DNA of 64,000 nt from Micromonospora sp. PLK6-60 (GTDB lineage: Bacteria; Actinomycetota; Actinomycetes; Mycobacteriales; Micromonosporaceae). The notes under the pieces were generated by a model that saw nothing but the letters and a program-made list of their open reading frames with translations, was not told where the DNA came from and did not search any database. The position numbers and the translations under genes are program-made. Below are positions 32,904 through 43,465 of this stretch, in pieces; positions within the stretch are counted from its first letter, which is position 1; every line of letters starts with the position of its first letter. The stretch covers positions 558,001-622,000 of the forward strand of contig NZ_JAIOAA010000001.1 of the NCBI RefSeq assembly GCF_019890675.1, given 5' to 3'.

Positions 32904-33260
32904 TCAGGGCAGCGGCACCACGTAGGAGTCGACCCGGGCGATGCGCCCGTCGCGGAAGGTGAACAGGTCGTTGAAGGCGAAGCGGAACGGGCCGTGTTCG
33001 ACGCTGACGCCGCGGCCCTCGCCCGTGGTGACGACGACCGGGCCGTCCTCGTGGACGCGCTGGACGTCGAGCTCCGGACTGCCGGTGAAGGCGGGATTCT
33101 CGATCTCACCGTCGAACTCGGCCTTGCCGCGGGTCCTCCGGTGGCCGTGGATGACCCACTCGACGTCGTCGGTGAGGGTGGCCAGGATCCGCCGGTGATC
33201 GCTGGTGCGGAAGCCGGCGAAGTATTCCGCGACGAGGTCGCGCTGGGCGCTGCGGGTCAT
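32904..33260 (-). CDS. SnoaL-like (NTF2-fold) protein
   Basis: The 118-residue protein has the NTF2/SnoaL pattern: a helical start (DLVAEYFAGFRTSDHRRILATL), DDVEWVIHGHRRTRGKAEF, and FRFAFNDLFTFRDGRIARVDSYV with the closing sheet. It is the third gene of an ArsR-SRPBCC-SnoaL operon, its ATG overlapping the preceding stop by 4 bases. Such proteins are often annotated as ketosteroid-isomerase-like; the substrate cannot be told from sequence. Confidence 0.8.
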   Translation of the reverse strand: MTRSAQRDLVAEYFAGFRTSDHRRILATLTDDVEWVIHGHRRTRGKAEFDGEIENPAFTGSPELDVQRVHEDGPVVVTTGEGRGVSVEHGPFRFAFNDLFTFRDGRIARVDSYVVPLP

Positions 33261-36590: not shown

Positions 36591-37487
36591 GTGGCGGGAG
36601 ATCTCGACGAGGCGGCGTCGATCTTCGCCGGGGTGCGGCCGCGCCTGTTCGGGATCGCCTACCGGATGCTCGGCAGCGCCAGCGAGGCCGAGGACCTGGT
36701 GCAGGAGGTCTGGCTGCGCTGGCAGGCGACGGACCGCGCGGTGGTGGCCAACCCCGGCGCGTTCCTGGCCACGACCACGACCCGGCTGGCGATCAACGAG
36801 CTGCGCTCGGCGCGGGCCCGGCGCGAGACGTACCTCGGGCCGTGGCTGCCGGAGCCGGTCGACACGAGCGCGGACCCGTTCCTGGGCGCCGAGCGCGGGG
36901 AGGCGCTGGAGCTCGCGGTGCTGCTGCTGATGGAGCGGTTGACGCCGCACGAGCGGGCGGCGTACGTGCTGCGCGAGGCGTTCGACTACCCGTACCCGCA
37001 GCTCGCCGAGGTGCTGCGGTCCACGGAGCCGGCGGTCCGCCAGCTGGTCAGCCGGGCGCGCCGGCACATCGCCGCCGAGCGCCGGGCCCCGGTGCCGGAG
37101 GCCGCCCAGCGGCAGCTGCTGGTGGCCTTCGTCGACGCCGCCCGCGGCGGTGATCTCGCCGCGCTGGAGCGGCTGTTCGCGGCCGACGCGGCGAGCATCT
37201 CCGACGGCAACGGGGCGCGGCGGACCGCCCGCAAGCCGATCGTCGGGGGCGCGCAGGTGGCGCGGTTCGTCGCGACGGTCTCGACCTGGTTCTGGGCCGG
37301 TGTGGACGTGCGGCGGGTCACCACGAACGGGCAGACCAGCGTGGTGCTGCGCCGGGACGGCGAGCTGTTCGGCATGATCACGGTCGCCGGTTCCGCGGCC
37401 GGCATCGATCGACTGCTGTGGATGATGAACCCCGCCAAGCTCACCGCCTTCGCTGCTGTCACGCCCGAGCCGCCCGCCCGGTCATAG
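36591..37487 (+). CDS. ECF41-type RNA polymerase sigma factor with fused SnoaL domain (SigJ-like)
   Basis: The 298-residue protein starts at a GTG after GGGGGGAGGATCG. Region 2 (IAYRMLGSASEAEDLVQEVW) and region 4 (LTPHERAAYVLREAFDYPYPQ, then TEPAVRQLVSRARR) are intact. The linker motif WLPEP (residues 85-89), a DGNGA motif at the place of DGGGK, and MMNPAKL near the C-terminus identify ECF41, in which a C-terminal SnoaL_2 domain replaces the usual anti-sigma factor and controls activity from within. ECF41 factors typically drive a COE gene (carboxymuconolactone decarboxylase, oxidoreductase or epimerase); an oxidoreductase/epimerase-like gene with matching promoter motifs lies at 42525-43256. 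No ECF41-type motif was found in front of the sigma gene itself. Confidence 0.92.
   Translation: MAGDLDEAASIFAGVRPRLFGIAYRMLGSASEAEDLVQEVWLRWQATDRAVVANPGAFLATTTTRLAINELRSARARRETYLGPWLPEPVDTSADPFLGAERGEALELAVLLLMERLTPHERAAYVLREAFDYPYPQLAEVLRSTEPAVRQLVSRARRHIAAERRAPVPEAAQRQLLVAFVDAARGGDLAALERLFAADAASISDGNGARRTARKPIVGGAQVARFVATVSTWFWAGVDVRRVTTNGQTSVVLRRDGELFGMITVAGSAAGIDRLLWMMNPAKLTAFAAVTPEPPARS
37457..37483 (+). promoter_or_regulatory. ECF41-type promoter motif inside the end of the sigma gene
   Basis: TGTCACG (37457-37463), 16 bases, then GGTC (37480-37483) followed by ATAGC. The published ECF41 consensus, as I recall it, is TGTCACA-N16-CGTC. The site would drive the short SnoaL-domain gene downstream. 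The spacing and the trailing TAGC agree with the two copies before the oxidoreductase gene. Confidence 0.55.
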
Positions 37488-37567
37488 CTGCCGACAGCGA
37501 GGGACAAGGGGGACGACCGTGGGCACGATGCCGAACGTCGACGCCGCGGCGGGGGTCCGGGCGCACG

Positions 37568-37924
37568 ATGCCCGCCGGCCCTGACGAGGCCGTACGCCGG
37601 CTCGCCGCCGCCTGCCACCCGGGCGACGCCGACGCGATCGAGGCCGCCCTGCACCCGGACGCCGTCGCGGTGTCCGACAGCGGCGCTCCGGCGCCGGCGG
37701 CGGCCCAGGCGGCGCGGGGCGCGGCCGGGGTGGCCCGGCTGCTGCGCGCGCTGCTGCCCGGCACCGACGTGACCACCGAGAGCGTCAACGGTCGCGCCGG
37801 GCTGGTGCTGCGCCGGGCCGGCGTCGCCGTCGCCGTGATCGCCGTCAGCCACGACGAGGCCCGGGCCACGGCCCTGTGGATCGTGCGGAATCCGGCGAAG
37901 CTGCGCGGCTGGCACCGCCGGTGA
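37568..37924 (+). CDS. free-standing SnoaL-like domain resembling the C-terminus of the ECF sigma factor
   Basis: The 118-residue protein has no sigma regions. It opens VRRLAAACHPGDADAIEAALHPDAVAVSDSG and closes ATALWIVRNPAKLRGW, the NPAKL ending also present in the ECF41-type factor just upstream (MMNPAKL). It is thus a stand-alone copy of the regulatory domain. The ATG lacks a ribosome-binding site, but a 21-codon reading frame with a good one (GTG at 37519) ends 17 bases inside it, so translation may be coupled. Its 3' end overlaps that of the convergent second sigma gene by 80 bp. It might regulate a sigma factor in trans; that is an inference. Confidence 0.7.
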   Translation: MPAGPDEAVRRLAAACHPGDADAIEAALHPDAVAVSDSGAPAPAAAQAARGAAGVARLLRALLPGTDVTTESVNGRAGLVLRRAGVAVAVIAVSHDEARATALWIVRNPAKLRGWHRR

Positions 37925-38639
37925 GCCCGCCGCCGACCTTCCCTCGTCGCGGGCTGACCGGCTCCCTCGCCACCTCGACGAGAGCGGCCGGATCCCCGGT
38001 GCGGGCGACCTCCCCGAACGCCGCGAGCAGCCGGAGTTGTTCCACGGGCGACGCCGGCCCGCCGGTGGCGGCGGTCAGCCGGACCCGGGCCCGCCGGAGC
38101 AGTTGGCGCGCGTTGGCGTCGGTCAGCCCGAGCGCGGCACCGATCTGCCGGTGCGGGAAGCCGAACGCCTCGCGGAGCAGGTAGGCGGCCCGCTCCCGGG
38201 GTGCGAGTCGCTCGACGAGCAGCCGCAGCGCGGCGCGTAGTTCCTCCGCCCGTTCCACCACCACCGTCGGGTCGTCGCCCCGGTCCGGGCGTTCCACCTG
38301 CCACGCGGGCGCCGCGCTGCGGTGGCGCACGTGCGCGGTCTGGATCGCGTTGATCGACAACAGGGTGGTGGTCCGGTAGAGGAAGGCCGGCACGTTGCGC
38401 ACCTCGCCGCGATCCGAACGGTCCCAGCGCAGCCACGCGTCCTGCACGACGTCCTCGGCGTCGGTCTCGTCGCCGACGATGCGGCCGGCGATGCGCAGCA
38501 GCCGGTCGCGCACGTCGAGGAAGTCGGCGAGGTGTGGCGGGTGGGCACGGGGCCGGGCCGCCGGCCGGCGGGACCGCGCGGCGGCCTGGCGGGACGTGGC
38601 CTGCGCGGGGCCGGTGGATTCGAGCAGGGCTTCGGACAT
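37845..38639 (-). CDS. ECF sigma factor lacking a complete SnoaL domain
   Basis: The 264-residue protein has region 2 (RIVGDETDAEDVVQDAWLRW) and region 4 (LAPRERAAYLLREAFGFPHRQ, then LTDANARQLLRRARVRL). After region 4 the sequence begins like a SnoaL domain (VEQLRLLAAFGEVARTGDPAAL) and then becomes an Arg/Gly/Ser-rich tail without domain character. The last 80 bp overlap the convergent SnoaL gene, so the tail is probably not conserved. WLPEP is absent, so it is a relative of ECF41 at best. The domain looks lost or truncated. The start is an ATG; upstream is a 280-bp region shared with the SARP-LAL gene. Confidence 0.75.
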   Translation of the reverse strand: MSEALLESTGPAQATSRQAAARSRRPAARPRAHPPHLADFLDVRDRLLRIAGRIVGDETDAEDVVQDAWLRWDRSDRGEVRNVPAFLYRTTTLLSINAIQTAHVRHRSAAPAWQVERPDRGDDPTVVVERAEELRAALRLLVERLAPRERAAYLLREAFGFPHRQIGAALGLTDANARQLLRRARVRLTAATGGPASPVEQLRLLAAFGEVARTGDPAALVEVAREPVSPRRGKVGGGLTGGASRAASPDSARSTGPWPGPRRG

Positions 38640-38807
38640 CGACGCCTCCTGGTCGGTGACTCTCGGTGATCTCGACGCTAGGAGCGCGTAGTGCGGATGC
38701 AGTGCCGAGGAAGTGCCGGCGTCAGTGACGGTCCAGTGATGTCGGCCGGTCGACGGCGACGACCCCGTCACCCGCGCCACGGTGTGGTCTGGATCACTTC
38801 GCGCTGC

Positions 38808-38834
38808 TGTCACACCCAGGAACGCGACCCTGTC
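38808..38834 (+). promoter_or_regulatory. ECF41-type promoter motif upstream of the SARP-LAL gene
   Basis: TGTCACA (38808-38814), 16 bases, then TGTC (38831-38834). The -35 element is exact against the remembered ECF41 consensus and the -10 has one difference. It lies 86 bp before the ATG of the regulator on the same strand. Confidence 0.5.
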
Positions 38835-38919
38835 TCGGCTCGTGGAACCGGAGAACGGAGGGCGACGTGCGAACCACTTTCTGGCCGCGCTGGCCGGCTC
38901 GGCAAGGCACGCCCGGCGC

Positions 38920-41900
38920 ATGACCGACGTCCGGTTCACCATCCTCGGTCCGGTACGGGTCCAACGCGGCAGCACCGACCTCGACCTCGGCGGTCGCCAG
39001 CAGCGGCTCGTCCTCGCCCTGCTGCTGGCCCGGACCGGCTCGGTGGTCAGCGTGACCGAACTGGTCGACGCGGTCTGGGACGACGACCCACCGGCCAGCG
39101 CGGTGAACGTCGTGCACCGCTACATCGGCGCGCTCCGCCGGCTGATCGAACCGGAGCTGCCGGTCCGGGCCACCGGCCGGTACCTGATCCGGCAGGCGGC
39201 CGGGTACCAGCTCCGGGTCACCGCGGACTCACTCGACCTGCTGCGCTTCCGCGCTCTGCTGGCCCGGGCCCGGGAGGCGACCGACCCGCACCAGGCGGTA
39301 CGCCTGCACGTCGAGGCGTTGTCGCTGTGGCAGGGCCGGTGCGCCGCGGGACTGGAACCGACCGCGCGTACCCACCCCACCTTCGTCGCGGTGCAGGCCG
39401 AGCGCGCCCAGGCCGTGCGGGACGCCGCCGACACGGCGCTGCGGACCGGGCAGGCAAGTGCCGTCATCCCCGTGCTGCGCCAGGCCACCGGCGACGATCC
39501 GCTGGACGAGGCGCTGCAGGCCCGGCTCGTGCTGGCCCTCGCCGCCGACGGCCGGCAGGCGGAGGCCGTCGACCTGTTCCGCGACATCCGCCGGCGGCTC
39601 CGCGACGAACTGGGCATCAGCCCCGGGCCGGAGCTGCTCGACGCGTACGACCGGATGCTGCACCAACGCACCGGACCCGGCACCGCCGCGCCGGCCCCGC
39701 CACCCCCGGCGCCGCCACCGCCCGCGCCGGCCCCCGCCCGACCCGACAACCGGGCCACCGCCGGTGCCGCGCCACCGATGGTCGGCCGGGACGCCGAACT
39801 GCGGGCCCTGCGTCGCCGGCTCGCCGACGCCGCCACCGGGCACGGGTCCACGCTGCTGGTGCACGGCATGGCCGGCGTCGGCAAGTCGGCGCTGCTGCGT
39901 ACGGTCGCGGCCGACGCCGCGCAGCGCGGCTTCGTCGTCCTGTCGACGGCCGGGGTGGAGACCGAGCGGTGGTTCCCCTTCGCCGCCCTGCACCTGCTGC
40001 TCCAGCCGGTCACCCGACACATCGAGGACCTGCCGGAGGCGCACCGGCTGGCCCTGCGCGCCGCGTTCGGTGACGCCGGGAGCCAGCCGGACGCGCACCG
40101 GGTCGCCTTCGCGGTGCTGGAACTGCTCGTCGACCGGGCCCACCGGCAGCCGATCCTGCTGCTCTGCGACGACCTGCAGTGGTTCGACTCCCCCAGCCGG
40201 GAGGTGCTGGGCTTCGTAGCCCGGCGCACCCGGGACCACCCGATCCAGATGTTCGGCGCCGCCCGCACCGACGGTGCCGGCTGGCGCGGCACGCTGAGCC
40301 ATCCCGACCTGCCCCTCGAACCCCTCGACCGGACGGCCGCCGCCGAACTCCTCGACGCCGGCGCGCCGGACCTGCCGCCGTCGGTACGGACGCTGATCCT
40401 GGACCGGTCCGCGGGCAACCCGCTCGCCCTGGTCGAACTGCCCAAGGCGGCCCAACAGGGTCCGCACCAGGGGATGCCCGACCTGCCGCTGACCCAGCGG
40501 CTGGAGGCCGCCTTCGCCGCCCGTACCGACGAGACGAGCGCCGCCTGCCGCACGTTCCTGCTCGTCCTGGCCGCCGAGCCGACCGCGCCGGTGAGCCAGC
40601 TGCTGGCGGTGTCCAGCCAGGTCGCCGGCGCGGCGGTGACCGAGGACGCGGTTCGCGAGGCCGTCGAGGCGGGGCTGGTCACCTTCGTCGAGCACCGGCC
40701 GGAGTTCCGGCACCCGCTGATGCGCTCCGCCAGCTACGAACGCGCCCCGCTCGCCGATCGGCTGGCCGTGCACCGCGCCCTGGCCGCGCTGCTCGACGAC
40801 GTCCCGGAACGCCAGCTCACCCACCTCGTCGCGGCCACCCTCGGCCCCGACGACAAGCTGGCCGGCCGGCTCGAACGCTTCGCCGACACCGCGCAGGCGG
40901 TGGGCAAGGTCGCCGCGGCCGTACCGGCGCTGAGCCGGGCCGCGGGGCTGGTCACCGACCCCCGCCACCGGACCCGGATCCTGGTCCGGGCCGCCGAGCT
41001 GTCCAGCGACCTCAACGACCGCCACCAGACCCGGGCGCTGCTGGCCCGCGCGGACCTGCACGGGCTGGGCCCGGTCGAACGCGCCCGCCTGCTGCTCGTC
41101 TCCGACAACGCCGCGTTCGAACCGGACCAACCACACCGCCGGATCCGGGAGATGACCCGCGCCGCGGCCGGGGCGTACGACGACGGCGCCCGCGACGTCG
41201 CCGAGAACCTGCTGTGGCGGGCCGCGGCACGCTGCTTCTTCCAGGACGGCGACGCGCGGACCCGCGCCGGGACGGCCGCCGAACTGGACCGCTGGGACGC
41301 CGACCCGGACAGCGCCAACGTGCTGTCGGTACGGGCGTACACCGAGCCGTACCGGCACGGCGCCGACGTGATCGCCCGCCTCGCCCGCGCCACCCCGGAC
41401 CCGCGGGGCGGCCGGAACCTGCACTTCCTCGGCACCGCCGGGATGGTCCTCGGTGACTTCACCCACGGCACCCGCTACCTGGAGCAGGCGTCGACGATCT
41501 GGCGCTCGCAGGGCCGCCTCGGTCTGCTGGCCCGGTCGCTTGCCGGCTCGTGGCCCCGGGTCTACCTGGGCCAGCTCGACCAGGCCCGGGCCGAGGCCGA
41601 GGAGGGCTACCTGCTGGCGAAGGAGACCGGGGAGACGATCGCCCTGCTGGGGCTGACCGTCACGGCGGCCCTGGTGGCGGCGCTGCGCGGGGAGACGGTG
41701 GCGGCGCGGCGGCTGGTGACGGAGCTGCGGGCCGCCGAGCTGTTCGGGCACATGCCCTTCGCCACCGTGATGGCGCAGCAGGTCGACGGCCTCCTCGCCC
41801 TGTTCGCCGGCCGCGCCGTCGAGGCGTACGACCTGCTCGCGCACGTCTTCGACCCGGCCGGCCCGCACCACCACTCGGTGAGCTGCTGGCTGGTGGCGCC

Positions 41901-42549
41901 GGACCTGGCCGACGCCGCGGTGGCCGCCGGTGCCGTCGGACCGGCGCGGAAGCTGCTGACCGACCTGCCCGAGCTGGCCCGGCTGCTGCCCTCGGAGATG
42001 ATGTCGACGGCGCAGGCGTACACCGGTGCGGTGCTCGCTCCGGACGACGAGGCGGAGCGGCGCTACCGGGACGCGTTGGTCGCGCTGCCGGCCGGCTGCC
42101 GGCTGGCCCGCGCCCGGCTGCACCTGCACCACGGCCGGTGGCTGGGGGCGCGGCACCGCCGCGTCGAGGCCCGCGACCTGCTGCGCGCCGCCCGCGACGA
42201 GTTCGACCGGCTCGGCGCCCTGCCCTGGGCGGAGACGGCCCGGGGCCAGCTGCGGGCGTTCGGCGAGGTGAGCGGCCGGCGCCAGGCGAACATCAGCGAG
42301 CGGCTGTCCGCGCCGGAACTGCGGATCGCGACGCTGGCCGCGCAGGGGCTCAGCGATCAGGAGATCGCCGAGCGGCTGTTCATCTCCCACCGCACGGTCG
42401 GTGCGCAACTGGCGCAGATCTGCCCGCGGTTGGGGGTGACCGGCCGGGACGAGCTGGCCGCCGCGCTCGCCGTGGACGGCGACGGCCGGCACCCCGCGGG
42501 GGGTGCCGGCCGCCGGCCCGGCGGTCAGCGGGCGAGCCACTCCCGATAG
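38920..42549 (+). CDS. large SARP-LAL regulator: winged helix - BTAD - ATPase - LuxR helix-turn-helix
   Basis: The 1209-residue protein has an OmpR-type DNA-binding domain at residues 1-95 (GGRQQRLVLALLLARTGSVV) and a bacterial transcriptional activation domain to about 245 (LSLWQGRCAAGLEP, DELGISPGPELLDAYDRM). A proline-rich linker leads to an AAA ATPase with Walker A GMAGVGKS at 316-323 and Walker B LLLCDDLQWFD near 410. A long TPR-like helical region follows, and a C-terminal LuxR helix-turn-helix at about 1130-1195 (AAQGLSDQEIAERLFISHRT). Having DNA-binding domains at both ends makes it a SARP-LAL fusion; such proteins activate secondary-metabolite clusters. No cluster is adjacent. An ECF41-like motif lies upstream. 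The ribosome-binding site is weak, so the start is not certain. Confidence 0.87.
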   Translation: MTDVRFTILGPVRVQRGSTDLDLGGRQQRLVLALLLARTGSVVSVTELVDAVWDDDPPASAVNVVHRYIGALRRLIEPELPVRATGRYLIRQAAGYQLRVTADSLDLLRFRALLARAREATDPHQAVRLHVEALSLWQGRCAAGLEPTARTHPTFVAVQAERAQAVRDAADTALRTGQASAVIPVLRQATGDDPLDEALQARLVLALAADGRQAEAVDLFRDIRRRLRDELGISPGPELLDAYDRMLHQRTGPGTAAPAPPPPAPPPPAPAPARPDNRATAGAAPPMVGRDAELRALRRRLADAATGHGSTLLVHGMAGVGKSALLRTVAADAAQRGFVVLSTAGVETERWFPFAALHLLLQPVTRHIEDLPEAHRLALRAAFGDAGSQPDAHRVAFAVLELLVDRAHRQPILLLCDDLQWFDSPSREVLGFVARRTRDHPIQMFGAARTDGAGWRGTLSHPDLPLEPLDRTAAAELLDAGAPDLPPSVRTLILDRSAGNPLALVELPKAAQQGPHQGMPDLPLTQRLEAAFAARTDETSAACRTFLLVLAAEPTAPVSQLLAVSSQVAGAAVTEDAVREAVEAGLVTFVEHRPEFRHPLMRSASYERAPLADRLAVHRALAALLDDVPERQLTHLVAATLGPDDKLAGRLERFADTAQAVGKVAAAVPALSRAAGLVTDPRHRTRILVRAAELSSDLNDRHQTRALLARADLHGLGPVERARLLLVSDNAAFEPDQPHRRIREMTRAAAGAYDDGARDVAENLLWRAAARCFFQDGDARTRAGTAAELDRWDADPDSANVLSVRAYTEPYRHGADVIARLARATPDPRGGRNLHFLGTAGMVLGDFTHGTRYLEQASTIWRSQGRLGLLARSLAGSWPRVYLGQLDQARAEAEEGYLLAKETGETIALLGLTVTAALVAALRGETVAARRLVTELRAAELFGHMPFATVMAQQVDGLLALFAGRAVEAYDLLAHVFDPAGPHHHSVSCWLVAPDLADAAVAAGAVGPARKLLTDLPELARLLPSEMMSTAQAYTGAVLAPDDEAERRYRDALVALPAGCRLARARLHLHHGRWLGARHRRVEARDLLRAARDEFDRLGALPWAETARGQLRAFGEVSGRRQANISERLSAPELRIATLAAQGLSDQEIAERLFISHRTVGAQLAQICPRLGVTGRDELAAALAVDGDGRHPAGGAGRRPGGQRASHSR

Positions 42550-43256
42550 CTGGTCTCCGCGAGGACCGCGCCCTCCGGCGCGGTCAGCACGTCGCCCGGC
42601 ACCACGCCGAAGATGCCGGCGGTGGGGTCGACGACGACGGTCCGGGTGTCGCCGCCGGCGGCCAGGGCGACCCGGCCCCACTCGTCGAGCCGGAGCACCT
42701 CCGGGCCGGCCACGTTCCGGACGCCGTTGAGCGGGGCGCCCACGGCGGCCCGGGCCACCGCCTTCGCCACGTCGGCCGAGGCCATCGGCTGCACCGGCGT
42801 GGCGGGCAGCCGTACGGTGTCGCTGTCGCTGGTCCAGGACATGATCGCGCCGATGAACTCGTAGAACTGGGTGGCCCGGACGATCGTGTACGGCACCGGG
42901 CCGGCCCGCAGGATCTCCTCCTGGAGCACCTTGGCCCGGTAGTAGGGGTCCGGCACCTGGTCGACCCCGACGATGGAAAGGATCACCACGTGGCCGACCT
43001 GCTCCCGCTGCGCCGCCGCCAGCAGGTTCTCCATCGACGTGCGGAAGAAGTCGGCCGACTTCTCGTCGAAGGTGGGCGAGTTGGTCAGGTTCAGCGCCAC
43101 GTCGGCGCCCTTGAGCCCGGCGTCCAGACCCTCGCCCGTGAGCAGGTCCACCCCGTTGGACGGGGACAGCGGCACCGCCTCGTGACCATGCTGCTGAAGC
43201 ATCGTGACAGCCTGCGACCCGATGAGCCCGGTACCACCCAGCACGGCGATCTTCAT
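42525..43256 (-). CDS. NAD(P)-binding NmrA/epimerase-type oxidoreductase (likely ECF41-controlled COE protein)
   Basis: The 243-residue protein is an atypical short-chain dehydrogenase: MKIAVLGGTGLIGSQAVTML binds NAD(P), followed by VILSIVGVDQVPDPYYRAKV and PYTIVRATQFYEFIGAIM. Such NmrA-like oxidoreductases/epimerases are one of the three COE groups that ECF41 sigma factors control. The ATG follows GAGGAA. Two copies of an ECF41-type promoter motif lie upstream (43316-43342 and 43439-43465). The end overlaps the end of the convergent SARP-LAL gene by 25 bp. The substrate is unknown. Confidence 0.83.
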   Translation of the reverse strand: MKIAVLGGTGLIGSQAVTMLQQHGHEAVPLSPSNGVDLLTGEGLDAGLKGADVALNLTNSPTFDEKSADFFRTSMENLLAAAQREQVGHVVILSIVGVDQVPDPYYRAKVLQEEILRAGPVPYTIVRATQFYEFIGAIMSWTSDSDTVRLPATPVQPMASADVAKAVARAAVGAPLNGVRNVAGPEVLRLDEWGRVALAAGGDTRTVVVDPTAGIFGVVPGDVLTAPEGAVLAETSYREWLAR

Positions 43257-43315
43257 TTCCTCACACCCTCGTCTCGGTCGGGTTGCCGGGGGCGTTCGCC
43301 CGCGACACCAGCTAG

Positions 43316-43342
43316 GACCGGGCAGCCGCACCGGTTGTGACG
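43316..43342 (-). promoter_or_regulatory. ECF41-type promoter motif, proximal copy
   Basis: On the minus strand CGTCACA, 16 bases, GGTC, then CTAGC. It lies 60 bp before the oxidoreductase ATG, a normal distance for its promoter. Confidence 0.6.
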
Positions 43343-43438
43343 CCACCCGCCCCGATCGCCCGGTGCCGGTCGTCACAGGGTCCGCCGGCAGGCAGCGGGC
43401 GGCGATCCGGTAGCCGCTCGCCCGGCGACGTCAGCCAG

Positions 43439-43465
43439 GACCGGGCAGCAGCACCGGATGTGACG
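43439..43465 (-). promoter_or_regulatory. ECF41-type promoter motif, distal copy
   Basis: On the minus strand CGTCACA, 16 bases, GGTC, then CTGGC. It is an almost exact copy of the proximal motif 123 bp upstream. Confidence 0.55.

Follow-up and report, generated by a model that had tools for sequence, protein, structure and literature searches.

In a 64,000-nucleotide stretch of the Micromonospora sp. PLK6-60 genome (contig NZ_JAIOAA010000001.1, positions 558,001 to 622,000, forward strand; hereafter the window), the gene of an ECF41 sigma factor, sigA, lies close to four promoter-like sites, which stand before a free SnoaL gene, a SARP-LAL regulator gene and an NmrA-type gene. An initial annotation of this DNA had described these genes, all of which are present, as the regulon of a single sigma factor, and had overlooked a second sigma gene, sigB (37845-38639, minus strand), which sits between the free SnoaL gene (their 3' ends overlap by 80 nucleotides) and the SARP-LAL gene. 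Judging from sequence comparison, this is probably an ECF41 locus with a local regulon, in which both SigA and SigB would act on the SnoaL, SARP-LAL and NmrA-type genes through the predicted promoters. The earlier observation is confirmed, and its regulon reading is largely supported, as other genomes also carry sites before NmrA and at the stop codon of the sigma gene, and the SARP-LAL site is found in a second species, Micromonospora endophytica (G150). The restriction to one sigma factor is not supported, given sigB in the locus itself, a related genome of the genus (G096) without a sigA orthologue, and five further ECF41-like genes in PLK6-60.

We infer use of the sites, by SigA as well as SigB, and a relay role for the SARP-LAL protein. 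SigA would be held back by its fused SnoaL domain and, once released, would guide RNA polymerase to TGTCACA-N16-[GT]GTC promoters, its predicted targets being those of the free SnoaL gene, the SARP-LAL regulator and the NmrA-type gene, the last with two tandem copies. SigB, which has neither the SnoaL domain nor the linker motif that SnoaL reportedly contacts, most likely reads the same promoters without this brake, so that its output would follow the amount of SigB. The SARP-LAL protein may then pass the signal on, and, as the least certain of these steps, the free SnoaL protein might bind SigA in trans and damp the response.

The genes and sites, the conservation of the sites and their confinement to the locus can be read directly from the genomes compared. 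The motif YGTCACR-N16-KGTC matches the window four times, at 37457 (+), 38808 (+), 43316 (-) and 43439 (-), exactly where the initial annotation had placed it, and 100 dinucleotide shuffles of the window gave 0.72 matches on average, at most three and never four. The whole genome (6.46 Mb) holds 32 matches against 15 for a control pattern, an expectation of about 0.03 per 6 kb. The TAGC- or TGGC-like end noted earlier at three of the four sites, 3' of the -10 box, is likewise exact, the fourth (38808) having CGGC. With a weight matrix built from 71 distinct sites, all from other genomes and none from PLK6-60 itself, the four sites rank 1 to 4 in the window (37.8, 29.1, 26.4 and 16.0; next best 9.0), and on the first 27 matrix positions they again rank 1 to 4 among the 32 genome matches. 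The genome-wide scan that had been proposed, made here as pattern searches, located strong sites in this locus only: an extended consensus with up to three mismatches occurs at three places in the whole genome, all of them in the locus (0, 1 and 1 mismatches; control 1), but does not pick up the SARP-LAL site. Across 80 loci (L039-L118), the density of sites scoring at least 16 drops with distance, being 0.34 per kb at the sigma gene and 0.007 per kb 7 kb away.

The -35 box and spacing of these sites fit those published for ECF41 promoters, which are given as -35 TGTCACA, N16 and -10 CGTC (PMC3426412). The CGTC given in the initial annotation is right for ECF41 as published there, but wrong for the subgroup studied here, where all four window sites and 97 of 97 sites in relatives have [GT]GTC as their -10 box; the first base of this box, left free in the search, was G at 61 of the latter, T at 36, and C or A at none. 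Beyond the core, the matrix adds CTGYCC 5' of the -10 box and TAGCTG 3' of it. The published consensus, written as GTCACA-N10..24-CGTC, was dropped as a genome probe, having given 84 matches against 54 for controls and no peak at spacer 16 (5 matches at N16, 11 at N17 and 10 at N14 in PLK6-60). The comparison yields a sharper promoter rule for finding ECF41 targets, which joins [GT]GTC to the conserved spacer end and start region.

Conservation was examined in loci of other genomes, almost all of them selected through their ECF41-type sigma genes. Within these, the motif lies upstream of 73 of 84 NmrA homologues in a first set (spacers of 14 to 18 allowed), mostly 60-85 bp before the start, and of 97 of 111 in a later set with spacer 16, against 1 of 111 when the same regions were taken backwards. 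The window protein is above the cut-offs for NAD_binding_10 and Epimerase (PF01370, 22.7 against 20.9 bits), and reaches 23.7 bits with the NmrA model itself, under its cut-off of 27. Its distal and proximal sites are alike at 39 of 48 bp; such tandem copies (43308-43465, minus strand) occur only in PLK6-60 among the three genomes with sigB, M. endophytica and G096 each having a single site facing NmrA. In relatives, 141 open reading frames (ORFs) follow 147 distinct sites scoring at least 22, with NmrA-type proteins forming the largest cluster (72) and the rest belonging to several families. Sites also stand before NDH-2, LtrA, SDR and cupin-like genes (L119, L054, L048, L092, L104 and others), and likewise before hydrolase, ferritin-like and histidine-kinase-like genes; most of these labels were given by eye from the sequence, and, so qualified, this variety runs against the published picture of a single target.

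The M. endophytica orthologue of the SARP-LAL gene (L131) has a site scoring 31.4 at 115 bp before its ATG, compared with 112 bp in the window, and between the two species the -35 box, the -10 box and TCGGCT are kept, with a diverged spacer. Each gene is also preceded by a leader ORF with a good ribosome-binding site, of 19 codons in M. endophytica (L131:1265-1324) and 18 in the window, that overlaps the SARP-LAL start through ATGA; the frame is kept and the peptide is not, and this conservation of frame suggests translational coupling with SARP-LAL. A leaderless start at GTG 38842 was dropped, as this GTG is absent from L131. The protein itself carries Trans_reg_C, BTAD, AAA_16 and GerE, all above cut-off, and thus joins a SARP half to a LAL half. 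In a paralogous locus of the same genome (L130, G000:C1:428000-447000) and in its M. endophytica counterpart (L132), a SnoaL-less sigma factor, SigC, stands with SARP and LAL as separate genes, which in PLK6-60 are each about 68% like the halves of the window's fused gene. The fused gene and the split genes are a fusion or fission pair. An ECF41 site as a general feature of SARP-LAL genes was ruled out by the paralogous and genus loci that have no such site.

The free SnoaL protein matches residues 174-290 of the SigJ model (63.6 bits) and residues 178-299 of 5xe7 (E 3.9e-8). A site at the sigma stop codon was found in 19 of 79 relative loci, with shifted positions giving 0-1 at seven of eight offsets and 7 at +400, and a free SnoaL gene lies within 3.5 kb downstream of the full-length factor in 30 of the 79, the protein retaining NPxK in 21 of these 30. 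In Paractinoplanes ovalisporus (L054) the site is followed by an NDH-2-like gene, a label resting on Pyr_redox_2 in the G096 homologue, and then by a free SnoaL gene. A short ORF with a GTG start and a good ribosome-binding site (37519-37584) overlaps the free SnoaL start; it was noted in the PLK6-60 sequence only.

SigA contains sigma2 and sigma4 and shows SigJ/SigX4-type relatedness, passing the NCBIfam cut-offs for SigX4 (TIGR02957, 326.7 against 323.25 bits) and SigJ (PRK09636, 273.1 against 271); among solved structures, M. tuberculosis SigJ (5xe7) is the best relative. The ECF41 hallmarks first described are borne out by WLPEP at residue 85, between sigma2 and sigma4, and by the SnoaL-type C-terminus, seen via whole-length family models and not by Pfam SnoaL_2 at E 0.001; the "NPAKL ending", at residue 280 of 298, was loosely worded. 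The neighbour typical of ECF41 genes (carboxymuconolactone decarboxylase, oxidoreductase or epimerase) is here the NmrA-type gene, about 5 kb away with genes between. The main paper on ECF41 describes one fused inhibitory domain and names no signal (PMC3426412). The distal part of the extension inhibits and the first part is needed; the Ecf41Bli-204 and Ecf41Rsp-206 deletions were hyperactive, and removal of the entire extension gave inactive factors (PMC3426412). NPDKL joins the SnoaL-type domain to the linker motif (PMC7730460). Between SigA and its M. endophytica orthologue (36591-37487 compared with L115 and L131) the core is 88% identical and the SnoaL domain 61%, so that, judged by this alignment, the regulatory domain diverges faster than the core.

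SigB matches only the first part of the SigX4 model, up to position 193 (of 281), and neither a C-terminal SnoaL-type extension nor a WLPEP linker was found in it; by its sequence we regard it as ECF41-derived and not as a full ECF41 member. Its NG86 dN/dS is 0.34-0.45 across three species. Among the matches listed for 160 genus genomes, SigB orthologues of at least 68% occur only in PLK6-60, M. endophytica and G096, the nine next-best loci (L149-L157) having full-length factors, and each of the three genomes also has the second SnoaL-less paralogue SigC (50-53%). G096 has no sigA orthologue (best full-length factor 40-48%) and keeps NmrA (92%), with sigB about 190 bp after it; two of its sites (35.1 and 28.5) face an NDH-2-like gene and a third (25.9) faces NmrA. 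This combination of sigB, NmrA and strong sites in a genome lacking a sigA orthologue provides the strongest indication that SigB recognises such promoters, as it probably does.

Table 1. Genes and promoter-like sites of the ECF41 locus (window coordinates)
Feature	Position	Strand	Basis or remark
sigA, full-length ECF41 sigma factor, 298 aa	36591..37487	+	WLPEP linker; C-terminal SnoaL-type domain with NPAKL
Promoter-like site over sigA stop codon, 5' of free SnoaL gene	37457..37491	+	matrix 26.4; 1 mismatch to extended consensus
Gene of free SnoaL protein (about 118 aa) akin to SigJ SnoaL domain, NPAKL kept	37568..37924	+	PF12680, 28 bits
sigB, ECF41-like sigma factor of 264 aa lacking SnoaL domain and WLPEP	37845..38639	-	family models, alignment
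Promoter-like site 5' of SARP-LAL gene	38808..38842	+	matrix 16.0; lowest training site 16.5
Leader ORF, 18 codons and stop; TGA overlaps SARP-LAL ATG	38867..38923	+	read from sequence
SARP-LAL regulator, 1209 aa: Trans_reg_C, BTAD, AAA_16, LuxR-type HTH	38920..42549	+	Pfam
NmrA-type NAD(P)-binding oxidoreductase or epimerase, 243 aa	42525..43256	-	Pfam
Proximal promoter-like site, 86 bp 5' of NmrA-type ATG	43308..43342	-	matrix 37.8; 0 mismatches
Distal promoter-like site, diverged direct copy of proximal	43431..43465	-	matrix 29.1; 1 mismatch

Several observations weigh against a regulon of this breadth. The SARP-LAL site is the weakest of the four and falls below every training site (lowest 16.5), and a dinucleotide model gives two chance sites scoring at least 16 per 12.8 million strand-bases, about one genome. 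The invariance of the -35 core and of the last three -10 bases in the matrix is by construction, both having been fixed by the search pattern. The coupling between the stop-codon site and the free SnoaL gene is loose (9 loci with both, 10 with the site only, 21 with the gene only), and the free SnoaL orthologue is absent from M. endophytica and amounts to a 43-residue match in G096, a genome that also has other ECF41 genes, which could serve its sites in place of SigB. Finally, the account in PMC3426412 gives one target gene or operon per ECF41 factor. This last point, together with the weakness of the SARP-LAL site and its being missed at three mismatches, favours a classical single-target unit in which SigA would control only NmrA and perhaps SnoaL, the SARP-LAL match being due to chance or decay, and sigB with SARP-LAL being an inserted module with an unrelated promoter of its own. 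Also in favour of such a unit, L131 is the only SARP-LAL among the 141 ORFs behind strong sites in relatives, and no site scoring at least 11 was found in the paralogous locus (L130), its M. endophytica counterpart (L132) or the SARP loci (L133-L145) of a further 13 genomes from the genus. We nevertheless consider it rather unlikely, as the strong L131 site keeps the same distance and both boxes around a diverged spacer, and as the genes behind strong sites in relatives are of several kinds.

It is more doubtful still that SigB works the sites alone, with SigA silent or serving another target. The situation in G096 speaks for this, but most relatives in which such sites occur carry a full-length SigA-like gene and lack SigB, SigB orthologues of at least 68% are limited, among the matches listed, to 3 of the 160 genus genomes, and SigA retains all its domains and linker motifs. 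Nor do we give much weight to the idea that the sites are real ECF41 promoters read by another factor than SigA or SigB; the five further full-length ECF41-like genes of the genome (39-45% identity) could supply one, and the -35 box is common to the published ECF41 promoters (PMC3426412), yet in the genomes compared the sites are concentrated at SigA- and SigB-like genes, and the strong sites of PLK6-60 are confined to the locus. Least credible is a split ECF41 factor, with the free SnoaL protein and SigB providing regulatory domain and core from two genes. The two are adjacent and correspond to complementary halves of one family model; however, SigB has no WLPEP linker and is present in M. 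endophytica and G096, where the free SnoaL orthologue is missing or a fragment, and free SnoaL genes follow full-length factors in the 30 loci counted above.

ECF41 factors are common in Actinobacteria. Among 159 distinct ECF41-like proteins, 145 have a full C-terminus, all with W[LI]PE, and 14 are without it, 11 of these also without W[LI]PE; in a smaller number of loci, WLPEP was present in 118 of 121 full-length and in none of nine SnoaL-less factors. Eight of the 14 end at SigA-equivalent positions 199-208. In a check for frameshift artefacts, no same-strand SnoaL remnant was found at E 0.01 downstream of the 14 truncated genes; weak remnants appeared at L130 (E 0.05) and L217 (E 0.07), and the strong matches downstream in the window and in L147 come from sigA and SnoaL genes on the opposite strand. 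A LAL gene stands no more than 3 kb from 12 of the 14, a group that includes three SigB and three SigC orthologues. Where at least 3 kb of sequence was present on both sides, a LAL gene was found near 9 of 11 SnoaL-less and 5 of 123 full-length factors (SigA is one of the five; Fisher p 3.5e-9), with five LAL queries that all came from loci with truncated factors and may favour detection there. This p value overstates the evidence, because the SnoaL-less factors are possibly one lineage: a tree of 137 sigma cores shows three changes and at most three independent LAL pairs (one on well-supported branches), too few to test, and in a thinned tree of 74 rows (13 of the 14 truncated factors and every second full-length one, the long branches L098 and L163 left out) a single clade of SnoaL-less factors was not rejected (p-AU 0.54). 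We do not claim a repeated, independent gain of LAL genes beside SnoaL-less sigma factors, as the trees do not show independence. As a tentative suggestion, there may be a SnoaL-less ECF41 subfamily whose control has shifted away from the fused ligand-binding domain and now lies with an adjacent LAL-type ATPase regulator; here the LAL partner would be SARP-fused and placed behind an ECF41-type promoter, closing a loop with the unbraked sigma factor. Searches of the open-access literature turned up no description of SnoaL-less ECF41 factors next to LAL genes, which is weak evidence of absence.

SigA resembles Ecf41Bli, Ecf41Rsp and SigJ in its sigma2, sigma4, WLPEP, SnoaL-type C-terminus and NPxKL, and the locus shares with known ECF41 systems the -35 TGTCACA with N16 and the NmrA- or epimerase-type neighbour, while differing from them in [GT]GTC instead of CGTC, several predicted target units, and the presence of both a free SnoaL gene and a sister factor without SnoaL. 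The ECF56 pair SigG1-RsfG is similar in that a SnoaL_2-fused sigma factor has a neighbouring partner-protein gene; RsfG, however, is described as having no Pfam domain (PMC7730460), whereas the neighbour in the window is a free SnoaL protein, a putative partner of SigA. The natural SnoaL-less factors resemble the hyperactive laboratory truncations Ecf41Bli-204 and Ecf41Rsp-206, in ending at an approximately similar length; they differ in being natural genes of putative activity, 11 of the 14 being also without W[LI]PE.

Large SARP-LAL-type activators are often found in antibiotic pathways. The window protein is like SARP-LAL regulators such as PimR in having a SARP half (winged helix and BTAD) and an AAA ATPase with a LuxR-type HTH, and its gene differs in that two ECF41-type sigma genes and a site adjoin it and no synthase was found among the genes scanned. 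The tie to secondary metabolism drawn in the initial annotation is thus possible but unsupported, no polyketide or peptide synthase domain having been detected when 21 of the window's proteins were compared with Pfam. Should the SARP-LAL promoter prove real, an ECF41 system would feed a large activator of a kind frequent in antibiotic pathways. Outside the predicted regulon, and with no ECF41-type site near, the window also encodes a small SnoaL_2 protein (32904-33260, minus strand; 47.8 bits), about 3.3 kb before sigA.

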